Shown here piece by piece: positions 7,803 to 13,690 of a stretch of 64,000 nucleotides of DNA. The DNA is taken from positions 1 through 64,000 of the forward strand of contig PAZC01000060.1 of the NCBI GenBank assembly GCA_002716045.1. The letters are read 5' to 3'. The notes below the pieces were generated by a model. It was not told the origin of the DNA. It worked only from the letters and a program-made list of their open reading frames with translations, and did no database searches. This DNA is from Opitutia bacterium (lineage in GTDB: Bacteria; Verrucomicrobiota; Verrucomicrobiia; Opitutales; Seribacteraceae). Position 1 is the stretch's first letter. Each line of letters begins with the position of its first letter. Position numbers and translations under genes: made by a program.

Positions 7803-10595
7803 TTAAAGGAAGTTGAGGAGCGATGTGTTCATCATGTGGGCACCAACTTGTATGGCGGCTTGATAAGCAGTGGTTGCCCGTGTCATTCGAACGATGGCCT
7901 CGGAAAGGTCGACGTCGATGTCCTTGGCAATCCGCTGATCCAAGCCCATGAAGTATTCCTCGTCATGCTTTTGGACAGTTTCCATTCGAGCCATTTTTGC
8001 CGCTACTTCCCCCATTTTATCGACAACCTTGTCTTCCAGAGCAATCAGCTTCTGATTCGCAGCTTCTACTTCCGTCGCATAAGTGGAGGGCTTTGCATTC
8101 CTGAGAGCGTCTCGCAAGCTAATCATGGAGTCAACCACGTCACCCAAGTCCTTTGTGCCACCATTACTGGCTTCCAGATAATAAGATATCTTACTTCCCT
8201 TACCTATGTAAGTCTCGGCATTTTTTTCGTTGCCGTTGTAGGTGACGTCTATGACCTCACCTTTGGAATTTCTATGCGAGAGGAAGGTCTCGGAACCCGT
8301 GGCAAAAGAAAAGGTGTCTTGCAGTCTTGGTGAAGTCGGAAGGTTCATGTCGGCTGCCTCGGCAGGCATTTTGAAACCGAAAACTTTGCCATTGTCACCT
8401 ATCACGTCGACTGTGATCTCTACGCCTTCAGAGGTGCGAACCACAGCGCTCTGCGGCATTTCGTCCTCATAGGTGTAGCTGCCGGCCTTCGTTAAGCGCA
8501 AGCCCACCAGGCGACCACTGGCGTCAACGACAGCTTCGGCCTCGGCTCCTTCTCCTCCTCGAGTGGGCGGGGCAATGATCACCTCGGGCCAATCCGAGCG
8601 ATCCGCCCGGAATTTAGCGACGTGTCCGAAAGATTCACCAATCGGCAACCATGCGTCGTTTTGAACAAGATCTCCATTGGAGTTGTGGATGTATTCATCA
8701 TCCGGGTAGACCAGATAATTATCCACCAAGTCAAGGGGATCAAAAGCCAAATTCTTGAAGTTGTCCTGTAAGCATTGCCAGTAGCGATTCTTGTGGTAAA
8801 CAATGTCACCAGTGTTGTAAGTGCGCCCCTGATTCCAGTCTAAGCCCTGAGGGCTCTCGTAAATCGAGACCTCTTCAAGCTTGGAGGCATTTGTGGGATT
8901 GCTGGGATCAAAGGCGGCAACATCGCCATCCGTGGTGAAGTCCGAAAGAACGAAATAAAATTTATTTGCTGAAAGATCGTGGAGATATTCTCCCTTTATC
9001 AGGCTTTGGTTTTTGGTGGAATCAAGAACCGTATTAAAGCCCGATCTGGGCAAAACTTTCCCCAAGTTCAAGAAATCTGCAGTTGATTCAGCGGGGCTTG
9101 AGGGCAATCCAGATAGATCAGCTTCTTTAGGTACTGATTGGAGAGCTTTGTAGTATTGGCCATCATATACAAATATGTCATTCTGCTGATACGCACTGTT
9201 GGTCAATCCTCCAGTCCCTGGCTCTCTAAGTAGATTGCCAGTTATTTTGCTACCTCCCACATTTTCACCATTGGCCGAAGCGGTCAAAGTGTACTCCAAT
9301 GTACGGGGATCGAAACTAACGCGGGCGGCAGCGCTTTCAGAGCCAATCGCTTCAAACTGAGCCACACTCATCGTAACTTGACTTATTCCGGTATACATCG
9401 AGTCCAGCGTAGCTTGTGGTGTTTCGACGTCGGCGCTTTGATTAAGAACGGAGATGACATGATTTTGGGCATCCGTCAGGTCTTCGAAAAGCCAACCATC
9501 TGGCGTGAGATTGTAGGCCTTATACTCATGCGACGAAACATTCAGGTTCCAATCTTCTCGCAGAACGTCGTAGGTCGAATCGACCTCTTTCCACGCTTTT
9601 GCTAGATTAGTATCAGGGAAGCGGTTGAAGTTCTCGTCTGTCTGAGACTCCCAGATCTTGTCGTTGTAATAGACGAGTTCGCCTCTGTTGTATGAAGTGA
9701 GGCGTTGCCAGTCGGCTGGATGCGTGAGCGCGATATTGGTAGCTTCAGAAACTTTACTCGATGTTACTGAGAGGCTTCTGGTCCAACGACTCCCCTGTCG
9801 TCTCGTATCATTCGGGAATTCATATTCAGGGTCAGCGTCCGTTTCATATTCTGCGGTAAATTCGAAGTCTTCGTCAACTGCGCCATAAAGAAGAAGGTTA
9901 TTCTGGACATCCAATTTGGCCTGAATGCCAGTCTTGCGATTATCAGCATTTATTTTGTCTCGCAAAAATGCCGCAACAGCAGAAGCACTTTGAGCTACAT
10001 CACCAGTTTTATCATTAATGACAGTAGCAGTATCGATGACGTAAGGTCCCTGCCCCGCGACTTGAAAAGTAAATTTGTCGCCTACTTTAAGATTTTCGGG
10101 AATATAATTATCTGCCAACGACAATTTCTTTTCAAACCTTTGTCCTTGAATTACGTCTGTTGATCCAAACTTAGGAGTAGTGTATGTACCTCCAAACAGG
10201 GCTTTCTTTCGGTGTGTGGCATTAATCCGATTGAGGGCTTCCTCCAAGAGTTGGTTCATCTCCTGGGCATTTGTTTCCATCGCGACGTAGTTCAATCCAG
10301 AGCCTGAAGTACGGGCAAGCTCTTGAGATCGGACACCCAGCTCTCGGAGTTTATCGAGATTAAGGTGTGAGGCGTTTAGATATTCCGTGGCGTATGAAGC
10401 ATTGCGCTGATACTGGACGAGGCTATTTTTTTCCGTCTCCATTCGAACGAGACGCCCCATCTTCATCCCATCGTCCTCGGGCAAAGTAATCGATTGCCCG
10501 TCTGAAATTTGCTTCTGGAGATTTAGCTGGCGCTGATCCAGCTTCTTGATCACGTCGAGAAGATTCTCGGAAGTCGTGACATTTGGTACTCTCAT
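7803..10595 (-). CDS. flgL: Flagellar hook-associated protein 3 (FlgL), giant form of 930 aa
   Basis: FlgL-like N-terminus (MRVPNVTTSENLLDVIKKLDQRQLNLQKQISDGQ...LFGG) and C-terminus (DLSEAIVRMTRATTAYQAAIQVGAHMMNTSLLNFL) around a very long central insert. Confidence 0.88.
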   Translation of the reverse strand: MRVPNVTTSENLLDVIKKLDQRQLNLQKQISDGQSITLPEDDGMKMGRLVRMETEKNSLVQYQRNASYATEYLNASHLNLDKLRELGVRSQELARTSGSGLNYVAMETNAQEMNQLLEEALNRINATHRKKALFGGTYTTPKFGSTDVIQGQRFEKKLSLADNYIPENLKVGDKFTFQVAGQGPYVIDTATVINDKTGDVAQSASAVAAFLRDKINADNRKTGIQAKLDVQNNLLLYGAVDEDFEFTAEYETDADPEYEFPNDTRRQGSRWTRSLSVTSSKVSEATNIALTHPADWQRLTSYNRGELVYYNDKIWESQTDENFNRFPDTNLAKAWKEVDSTYDVLREDWNLNVSSHEYKAYNLTPDGWLFEDLTDAQNHVISVLNQSADVETPQATLDSMYTGISQVTMSVAQFEAIGSESAAARVSFDPRTLEYTLTASANGENVGGSKITGNLLREPGTGGLTNSAYQQNDIFVYDGQYYKALQSVPKEADLSGLPSSPAESTADFLNLGKVLPRSGFNTVLDSTKNQSLIKGEYLHDLSANKFYFVLSDFTTDGDVAAFDPSNPTNASKLEEVSIYESPQGLDWNQGRTYNTGDIVYHKNRYWQCLQDNFKNLAFDPLDLVDNYLVYPDDEYIHNSNGDLVQNDAWLPIGESFGHVAKFRADRSDWPEVIIAPPTRGGEGAEAEAVVDASGRLVGLRLTKAGSYTYEDEMPQSAVVRTSEGVEITVDVIGDNGKVFGFKMPAEAADMNLPTSPRLQDTFSFATGSETFLSHRNSKGEVIDVTYNGNEKNAETYIGKGSKISYYLEASNGGTKDLGDVVDSMISLRDALRNAKPSTYATEVEAANQKLIALEDKVVDKMGEVAAKMARMETVQKHDEEYFMGLDQRIAKDIDVDLSEAIVRMTRATTAYQAAIQVGAHMMNTSLLNFL

Positions 10596-10621
10596 GATCG
10601 TTTATTCCTGAAATTCAACAA

Positions 10622-13600
10622 TTAACGAATCAAGCCCATGACGACTAACTCAAGCATGCTGTCCAATGTAGTCACAACCCTTGCCGAAGCCTGAAAAGCT
10701 TTTTGGTAGCGCATCAAGTTGGCCACTTCTTCATCTATGGAGACGGCGCTGATTGCCTGACGCTCATCTATCAGCAAACCTTCCACCATTTGTTGATGCT
10801 CCAAGTTGTCCACTACATCGCCCAAGGTGTTGCCGACATCCGTGACGAGCACAGAGAGTTGTTCGGTGAAATCCCCGTTGCCCAACTCGGCAATGCCGAG
10901 GGCAACGTCGTTGGCTTCAGGTTCGGATGAATTGCTGGCAACAAGATTATCTAGCGTAAAGCCATTATCGAGATTCAATGCCTTGGCCAAATTTCGATCA
11001 TCTTTGATTAAGGTATCAAATGTGAAATTGTCGCCAAAGATAAAGGTATTAGTACCTTGCTCCATGCGAAAGGGGATCTCGTCATAAGCAAGGATGTGGC
11101 TTCGTCCGTCATCTTTGGTGTTCGCCAAGCCATCTGCCCCGACATAATCCATGTCATTCTCGATGGTGACGTTTTTCATCCGTCGAGCCCCAACGTAAAT
11201 CTTGCTGAAGCTTGGATCTTCAACCAATAATTCACGATCCGTGTTTCGATCCTCAGGAAAAAATGCAGAGGCATTGACGATGGTGAATGTGTCTGTCTCG
11301 GAATATGGAATCGTTATGTCGACCTCATCTCGATATAGATTAAGGTTTCCATCGCCCTGTTGATCAGGATACAACTCGTTCTTTCCTTGAGTTGCGCGAG
11401 ATAGCATGCCGGGAAATCCGAATACATACTTGCCCGGTTCGTCTTCCGGATTGTAGATTTGATTGACCTTGGCCACGACGTCGCCGACCAAAGTGTTCAG
11501 CTTCTTCCTGAAGCTCTCCATCTCAACGTGGCGAGCTTGCTGATAACCATGAATTGAGCCCGAGGTGACGTCCAAAGCGACGTCATCGATGAAAATGCTG
11601 TCTACAAGCGAATAACCGGAGCCCGCATTGGTGATCTTGAATCCAACAATTTGACCTTCCTTCACTATGGCTTCTGCAGTTGCGACTGGGCTACTGGCGG
11701 TACTGCCGGAACCAGTGGCGTCACTTGGATAGACGTAACTGAGGTTGACTGCAGTGAATTTGTCGGCGTCAAATGCCTGACCAGTGCGAGAAGCGATAGT
11801 GCCATCCGCTAGCTTGAAAGCATTGACCTCTGCTAAGTTAGCGGAAGTATTTGGGGCGAATCCTCCCGAAGTGGTATTTCCTGAAGTGCTGAAATCAGCG
11901 AGAGCTTGGTAGTAACGATTGTTTTCTCCATCGAAAAGATAGTCGCCCTTGACGAAAGACTGATCCTGTGTGCGTGAAAGAATCTGCTCTTGGCCGAGAA
12001 TAGGCAGGTCCGCTCCCAGTGTGAGAAAAGCCGTGCCGCCAGCAGTGAGATCCTTTTCTCCGGCAGTGGCAGCAAGATTATCTAGGCTGGCTCCTTTGGC
12101 CAAGTCTAGAGTGGCTTGATAATAGATGCCATTGTAGGAAACAACATCCCCTGCTTGGTATGCTTGGGTTGCCACAGCTCCAGCTGCATTTGGATCAACG
12201 CCTGTTTCCGTGACAACTGGTCCGATGGAACCAATGGCTTGATAATACTTTCCGCCGTTTTCGACGAGATCGCCTACCTTGTATCCAGTGGTCCGAGTTT
12301 TGGCCAAGTCATAGCTGGCTACGCTCATCGCATCAGGTATGGCTGTTAGCTTAAGAAATTTCGTGGTGTCTGAAAGCTGTGCGCCAGTTTGAGCAGTCGC
12401 ATCCGCTTCCGTAACATCCCAGGGCAAAGTATCAACCAGGGCTTGATAATAGTTTTCTCCATCAACAACAACGTCACCAGCCTTGTAAGGTCTCAGCGTG
12501 ATATCTGCCGGGAAACCGTTTACTACGACATCAGTGGTGGAATCAGTCAGTCCATCGGTTGTTCGAGTATATTTGGTTGAGGAAGTTGTTAGGTTCTCGA
12601 CAAGACCAGAGGCAACAAATGCAGCTATCTTTTCTGCTACGGTTGCGGCGGCAGCGGCAGTAGTGGTTGCTGTAGTAGCGGTAGCGGAAGGATGCGTGAA
12701 GGTAAAATTAATTGCAGCGGCGGTGTCATCGTAACCACTTCCGCCATCGAGTATCTCCACTCCGGCCAACTTGCCTTCGGAGTCGATGACAGCTCGTATC
12801 TTGGCGGCAGTGGCACCATCCGCTGCCGGGGTGTTCATTGTGTAATTGAGCTTATCGTCAGCGGATAAGGTTTTGGCTCCGGTGGAATCAAGTAAAACAA
12901 TGGCAGCGCCATCCTTGCCCTTGACCGAAAGATTGATTAAGCCAGTCCCTTCTCCCGTGGCTGCGTCAACGTCGTCGGTTGCGGTGTAGTCTAAAATCTT
13001 GGAAAGATCCTCTAGAGCTTTTTGTCGAAGATCTCTCAGGTCTGTTGCCCGCCCCTTGCCCTGTAGTTCGAAACGACGAATATCCCGATTCAGGAGATGG
13101 ATTTTGGCCAACAAATCATTGGCTGTCTTGACTTCATTTGCAACCGTCTCGGTGAGGTCGTCCTCAAGCCCCTCGAAGCTCTCGCCCATTTCATTGATTC
13201 GGGCAACTAAAGCCTTGGCCTTGTGCATTAACTCCTGACGAACCGATTCCTCAGTTGGAGCAGCAGATAATTCCTGATAAGCATTGAAGAAGTCATTCAG
13301 GGCGCGGGTCAAGCTTCCGGGAGCAAGATCCGACTCATGCATGTCGTCAAGTCCGGCGTTAAGCGACTGGCGGTTTACTTTTTCACCTAAAATCAGTTGA
13401 AGCAAATCGAGGATTTCCTTACGAGCTTCCAGCGACCCGCCTCCGCCGACTTCTGCAATGACTCGTCGATCCAGTAAATCGCTCCTGAAGTGGTCGAGTC
13501 CATCCGCGCGCAAGCCACCAGTGGAAAGCGAGAAATCGTCAGCATACATGTAGGCTTCTTTGGCAAGAACCCTTTGGCGAGCGTAATTGGGATCATTTAC

Positions 13601-13690
13601 ATTGGATAGATTCTTCCCTGCAACATCCGCTGACTTCGCGTGATAACGCAAAGCCTGCGAGTTTTTGAGAATTTCTCCTATGAGTCCCAT
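10622..13690 (-). CDS. flgK: Flagellar hook-associated protein 1 (FlgK), giant form of 1022 aa
   Basis: FlgK-like N-terminus (MGLIGEILKNSQALRYHAKSADVAGKNLSNVNDPNYARQRV) and C-terminus (SIDEEVANLMRYQKAFQASARVVTTLDSMLELVV). Confidence 0.9.
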   Translation of the reverse strand: MGLIGEILKNSQALRYHAKSADVAGKNLSNVNDPNYARQRVLAKEAYMYADDFSLSTGGLRADGLDHFRSDLLDRRVIAEVGGGGSLEARKEILDLLQLILGEKVNRQSLNAGLDDMHESDLAPGSLTRALNDFFNAYQELSAAPTEESVRQELMHKAKALVARINEMGESFEGLEDDLTETVANEVKTANDLLAKIHLLNRDIRRFELQGKGRATDLRDLRQKALEDLSKILDYTATDDVDAATGEGTGLINLSVKGKDGAAIVLLDSTGAKTLSADDKLNYTMNTPAADGATAAKIRAVIDSEGKLAGVEILDGGSGYDDTAAAINFTFTHPSATATTATTTAAAAATVAEKIAAFVASGLVENLTTSSTKYTRTTDGLTDSTTDVVVNGFPADITLRPYKAGDVVVDGENYYQALVDTLPWDVTEADATAQTGAQLSDTTKFLKLTAIPDAMSVASYDLAKTRTTGYKVGDLVENGGKYYQAIGSIGPVVTETGVDPNAAGAVATQAYQAGDVVSYNGIYYQATLDLAKGASLDNLAATAGEKDLTAGGTAFLTLGADLPILGQEQILSRTQDQSFVKGDYLFDGENNRYYQALADFSTSGNTTSGGFAPNTSANLAEVNAFKLADGTIASRTGQAFDADKFTAVNLSYVYPSDATGSGSTASSPVATAEAIVKEGQIVGFKITNAGSGYSLVDSIFIDDVALDVTSGSIHGYQQARHVEMESFRKKLNTLVGDVVAKVNQIYNPEDEPGKYVFGFPGMLSRATQGKNELYPDQQGDGNLNLYRDEVDITIPYSETDTFTIVNASAFFPEDRNTDRELLVEDPSFSKIYVGARRMKNVTIENDMDYVGADGLANTKDDGRSHILAYDEIPFRMEQGTNTFIFGDNFTFDTLIKDDRNLAKALNLDNGFTLDNLVASNSSEPEANDVALGIAELGNGDFTEQLSVLVTDVGNTLGDVVDNLEHQQMVEGLLIDERQAISAVSIDEEVANLMRYQKAFQASARVVTTLDSMLELVVMGLIR

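Follow-up and report, generated by a model that had tools for sequence, protein, structure and literature searches.

A block of sequence shared by the hook-filament junction proteins FlgL and FlgK is homologous in the two and, judged by profile comparison and structure models, contains only the last strand of a first CBM5/12-like repeat but the whole of a second, diverged one, with an 'LG..LP' linker between them. Both genes lie in the window, i.e. the whole 64,000-nucleotide stretch of Opitutia bacterium DNA analysed here. We suggest that the two proteins carry surface inserts built of CBM5/12-like and GSGY modules, that these inserts go back to duplication of an ancestral cassette, and that they form a collar around the hook-filament junction. 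Taken as a whole, this explanation has a good probability of being right.

Identity of flgL and flgK

flgL, 7803..10595, minus strand: 930 aa, hook-filament junction protein 2 (HAP3), ~600-aa central insert
flgK, 10622..13690, minus strand: 1022 aa, hook-filament junction protein 1 (HAP1), ~470-aa central insert

FlgL possesses flagellin-like N- and C-terminal helices, with a Pfam Flagellin_N match (3.6e-8), and its model superposes on solved FlgL structures with Z 18-20. The match to TIGR02550 (2.7e-33, 115.9 bits) is split over two stretches and stays below the 127.2 cut-off. FlgK is assigned to HAP1 by FlgK_D1 (1.2e-30) and Flg_bbr_C, both above the Pfam cut-off; TIGR02492 (1.5e-51) is above cut-off as well, and Foldseek leads from the FlgK model to FlgK 2d4y (E 1.9e-11). 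Because helices fill the match list, VIA-align with the FlgL model yielded only flagellin/FlgL chains among the matches listed, and we set it aside as evidence on CBM5/12, neither for nor against. No RNA families were found in the flgL/flgK region.

Similarity of the shared block

Block in FlgL, aa 506-584 = 8844..9080, minus strand: predicted third strand of copy 2, LG..LP linker and diverged copy
Block in FlgK, aa 553-630 = 11801..12034, minus strand: predicted third strand of copy 3, LG..LP linker and diverged copy

A sequence-only reading of this DNA had quoted the two strings and aligned them by eye. Both are encoded at these places, and their likeness is real homology: the local alignment (BLOSUM62) scores 129, compared with 25.2±4.8 and a maximum of 54 for 5,000 shuffles (z 21.6). 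In whole-protein blastp the match is longer, extending upstream of the block (FlgL 462-584, FlgK 504-630; 131 columns, 36% identity, E 4e-17). Short repeats rich in G, D and Y could align by chance, but such values, together with a profile match of 98.5-98.8% against at most 2.2% with shuffled columns, leave practically no room for chance or composition, which the shuffles rule out. The similarity is also old. At third codon positions of the block, identity is 35%, where composition alone predicts 26%, and the same codon is used at 10 of the 30 identical residues.

The surroundings of the block were said to be colinear, and this agrees with our results. The 'Y-GD-V-Y' motif precedes the block in both proteins (FlgL 465-490, FlgK 508-533). 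The GSGY motif that was to follow it is a true GSGY in FlgK (690-693); FlgL has only a degenerate GS-Y (705-707). According to hhalign, FlgL 464-709 and FlgK 506-694 align over 182 columns with a probability of 98.7%, in a stretch that runs through repeat, block, later repeat and GSGY.

The block as a part of CBM5/12-like repeats

Pfam CBM_5_12 exceeds its cut-off of 26.2 in both proteins, with 38.6 bits in FlgL (whole-protein E 1.1e-9) and 27.4 bits in FlgK. A repeat HMM, built on the window's six canonical 'Y..GD.V...YY.A' copies and iterated over 55 FlgK and FlgL proteins of the family, recognises three canonical copies in FlgL and three in FlgK. The repeats of the two proteins are:

FlgL CBM5/12-like copy 1, aa 298-338 = 9582..9704, minus strand: repeat HMM 1e-8; strands 307-310, 313-317, 335-338
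FlgL CBM5/12-like copy 2, ending within the block, aa 465-512 = 9060..9203, minus strand: repeat HMM 5e-10; strands 474-477, 480-484, 508-512
FlgL diverged CBM5/12-like copy within the block, aa 529-577 = 8865..9011, minus strand: strands 537-540, 545-549, 573-576; 97.3% profile match to the FlgK block copy
FlgL CBM5/12-like copy 3, aa 590-652 = 8640..8828, minus strand: repeat HMM 2e-12; best Pfam CBM_5_12 stretch aa 587-611
FlgL GS-Y hairpin repeat, aa 683-720 = 8436..8549, minus strand: profile match to the FlgK GSGY repeats, 94.7% and 60.9%
FlgK first GSGY repeat, aa 282-331 = 12698..12847, minus strand: strands in model; 94.7% profile match to the FlgL GS-Y repeat
FlgK CBM5/12-like copy 1, aa 398-448 = 12347..12499, minus strand: repeat HMM 7e-10
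FlgK CBM5/12-like copy 2, aa 466-492 = 12215..12295, minus strand: repeat HMM 2e-8
FlgK CBM5/12-like copy 3, ending within the block, aa 508-559 = 12014..12169, minus strand: repeat HMM 9e-12; Pfam CBM_5_12 3.4e-6 at 507-526
FlgK diverged CBM5/12-like copy within the block, aa 576-623 = 11822..11965, minus strand: profile match to FlgK copies 1, 2 and 3
FlgK second GSGY repeat, aa 670-706 = 11573..11683, minus strand: model strands and profile match; weak PHROG 460 match, E 0.037

The block had not been recognised as a named domain. Profiles and models place it in the CBM5/12-like repeat family, straddling two repeats. When the block fragments alone are compared to Pfam, no match appears and the block by itself does not qualify as PF02839; among sequence methods, it is profile-profile comparison that links it to CBM5/12. 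After removal of family members with canonical copies in that alignment region, the FlgK block copy (second half of the block) matches FlgK copies 1, 2 and 3 with 95.6, 92.5 and 87.1%, and the column-shuffled control against copy 1 reaches at most 2.6%. The FlgL block copy, close as it is to its FlgK counterpart, resembles the canonical copies weakly (best 68.6%).

Structure prediction had been recommended along with the original observation, and AlphaFold, supplied with family alignments, gives models (mean pLDDT 77 for FlgL and 68, a moderate confidence, for FlgK) that contain a three-strand unit with the same order in both proteins. In the FlgK model the strands are 516-519, 522-526 and 555-559, followed by 584-587, 592-596 and 619-622. 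On these strand positions, the first strand of the block would be the last one of a repeat, and the following repeat would lie entirely inside the block. In Foldseek, the models match Vibrio chitin-oligosaccharide deacetylases over ~110 columns (FlgL with probability 1.00 and E about 3e-3, FlgK with probability 0.96 and E about 6e-3). These deacetylases are known to carry CBM5/12-type modules, and we take the matched part to be that region. The FlgK model mb7eadad954c2 also has weak Foldseek matches (probability 0.4-0.66) to baseplate/tail fibre proteins of Agrobacterium phages Milano and 7-7-1. In the open-licence literature, we found no papers reporting CBM modules in FlgK or FlgL.

Possible collar at the hook-filament junction

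The FlgK and FlgL proteins of Salmonella form one ring each at the hook-filament junction, 11 copies per ring, with domain D2 pointing outward (PMC12221982). The inserts described here would be situated between the conserved D0/D1 helices, each with four recognised CBM5/12-like repeats plus GSGY hairpins. By analogy with the Salmonella rings, some 88 small beta modules of these inserts should surround the junction as a collar. We thus infer that the insert is most likely a surface-exposed collar, which probably decorates the junction or adheres, perhaps by means of glycans.

Binding of chitin by the known CBM5 site seems unlikely, because its aromatic pair is missing. This pair is almost fully conserved in CBM5 and lies on the chitin-binding surface (PMC8449059). 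We judged the position after the core Tyr by eye in six canonical and two block copies of the window, and in 8/8 the pair (Y282-W283 type) is absent, with non-aromatic residues in its place. The core Tyr is present in all six canonical copies, the core Trp is kept only in FlgL copies 1 and 3, and the chitin-binding combination of exposed aromatic pair and core Tyr/Trp was not found.

The missing pair also favours modules with a purely structural task, namely to stiffen or space the junction without any ligand. Strong variation in length on a conserved framework is in line with this reading as well, and we grant it a real, if minor, chance; it competes with the adhesive role only and is compatible with the rest of the proposed explanation. 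As to that adhesive role, tandem CBM5/12-derived modules of FlgK and FlgL (perhaps of flagellin too) might recognise a marine glycan by a site other than the canonical one, which would make the junction of ocean Opitutales an adhesion collar. This is a rather unlikely proposal; if true, the flagellum base would also serve as a holdfast.

Distribution of the block

Relatives of the window are marine Opitutales MAGs and single-cell genomes. Of 36 genomes sampled from one marine Opitutales family, 30 have matches to the block profile, all of these matches within FlgK or FlgL frames; among 237 other Opitutales, none has a match. Within the family, every FlgL examined contains the block, some of them two or three times, and most FlgK have it in a form that has diverged to a varying degree; CBM_5_12 (Pfam) is recognised in 24/26 FlgL and 2/20 FlgK. 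Complete proteins of the family have about 930-1,500 aa (FlgL) and about 1,020-1,720 aa (FlgK); other Opitutales families have mostly plain proteins of ~300 aa and ~480 aa, respectively.

Occurrence elsewhere, e.g. in phage fibres or adhesins, had been raised as a question; in the sampled Opitutales and phylum genomes and in phage records, credible matches are confined to FlgK and FlgL of this one family. At the phylum level, two weak matches (E about 1e-3) in nucleotide-binding regulator-like and glyoxalase-like frames are read as chance. The FlgL block and the FlgK segment around the block gave 0 matches in 50,697 phage records, on which ground a phage origin of the LP block was rejected.

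In FlgK and FlgL of Geobacter, Desulfoluna, Lachnospiraceae and Planctomycetota the repeat HMM has no match; it is not very sensitive and also missed a weak CBM5/12-like piece in FlgL of G046, a genome of an outgroup family. None of the FlgK and FlgL of other phyla scanned with Pfam contained CBM_5_12. The G046 FlgL has 519 aa, and its single CBM5/12-like piece (E 2e-4 for the piece, below the Pfam cut-off) is flanked by GSGY-type repeats with similarity to virion structural families of PHROG (best E 6.9e-16). It may represent an early form of the insert. FlgL sequences of L094 (G046) and L102 (G036, from the family of the window) are identical in 518 of 519 residues; since these are two different families, G046 or G036 probably includes a misbinned contig.

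The genome of the window (G000) also encodes a 668-aa flagellin (contig C14, L176:5609-7615, plus strand), whose insert has CBM-like and 'LG..LP'-like motifs, including 'NFIKIGNALPND'. Profile comparison gives 78% over 75 columns with the FlgK insert and 24% with FlgL, which is no more than suggestive of a relationship. Another flagellin, of 2065 aa and with a GTG start (contig C15, L174:791-6988, plus strand), has Flagellin_N and Flagellin_C ends and, in its insert, GSGY-like repeats and a PQQ-type beta-propeller (PQQ_2 1.9e-23). Further CBM_5_12 matches of the same genome are in a 391-aa ORF (L171:2738-3910, plus strand) and, below the cut-off, in a 4127-aa frame (L172:2212-14592, plus strand).

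Origin of the cassette

We propose that in the ancestor of the marine Opitutales family, one of the two adjacent genes held a cassette of the form repeat-LP linker-repeat-...-GSGY. The cassette would then be duplicated into its neighbour, from flgK to flgL or vice versa, and both cassettes would subsequently expand and diverge. Because the block occurs family-wide and, in the genomes sampled, in FlgK and FlgL only, the duplication is supported, but it must be ancient, and a single one before the family diversified is enough. A recent duplication was discarded in view of third codon positions near background. In block trees, FlgK and FlgL are mostly apart. The sequence-only reading took the likeness to imply intra-operon duplication or exchange of a multi-domain cassette; the common, colinear cassette stands, but the event is ancient, and recent exchange in the window's genus is unsupported.

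Alternatively, flgK and flgL might each have received the cassette in an independent event from one external donor, for instance a secreted CBM protein or a structural gene of a phage. The PHROG matches of the outgroup GSGY-type repeats would fit this, and so would the other CBM_5_12 proteins encoded in the same genome. However, phage records lack the LP block, as do, beyond the family, the sampled Opitutales and phylum genomes (bar the two weak chance-like matches), and module order is alike in flgK and flgL. We therefore regard separate acquisition as improbable.

Little credence is also given to gene conversion, i.e. a later exchange between the two genes within the window's own genus. Eight FlgK, six of them from outside this genus, give FlgL 462-584 better scores than does any FlgL from outside it; the block tree places the window FlgL beside FlgK of a neighbouring genus (80/77), and the AU test on the longer segment rejects a single FlgL clade (p 0.03). 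However, slow evolution of the copies in this genus would explain the scores, and restricted to the block, the AU test yields p 0.29. Once several FlgK rows, including the long-branch L073_FlgK, are left out, FlgL and FlgK separate (90/80). Recent exchange was accordingly dropped, as the p value of 0.03 hinged on the rows later left out.

Comparison with known systems

Flagellins are well known for their variable outer domains; to our knowledge, those of the junction proteins FlgK and FlgL have been little studied. The junction proteins are fixed at 11 copies each. Coordinated, family-wide enlargement of both by carbohydrate-binding-type repeats suggests a surface function at the junction.

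The repeats share with CBM5/12 (PF02839) tandem use, the Y..GD.V...(Y)Y.A motif and, as predicted in the models, three short strands of which the last ends in W/F..(L/V). They differ in lacking the canonical binding aromatic pair and in their location inside flagellar axial proteins; moreover, the block copies have a longer hairpin and neither core Tyr nor core Trp. In Vibrio chitin oligosaccharide deacetylase (PDB 3wx7, 4nyu, 9jen), matched by the FlgL and FlgK models over a region taken as CBM5/12-type, the modules accompany the deacetylase, whereas no enzyme domain was found in FlgK or FlgL. Proteolytic flagellins (flagellinolysin, PMC5595980) likewise have a foreign functional domain in the variable region of an axial protein; there it is an enzyme in a filament protein, here beta repeats in junction proteins. 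FlgK and FlgL of Campylobacter differ from those described here in overall length and architecture, but with their bulky outer domains (PMC5691160, PMC12221982) they too are enlarged and exposed junction proteins.
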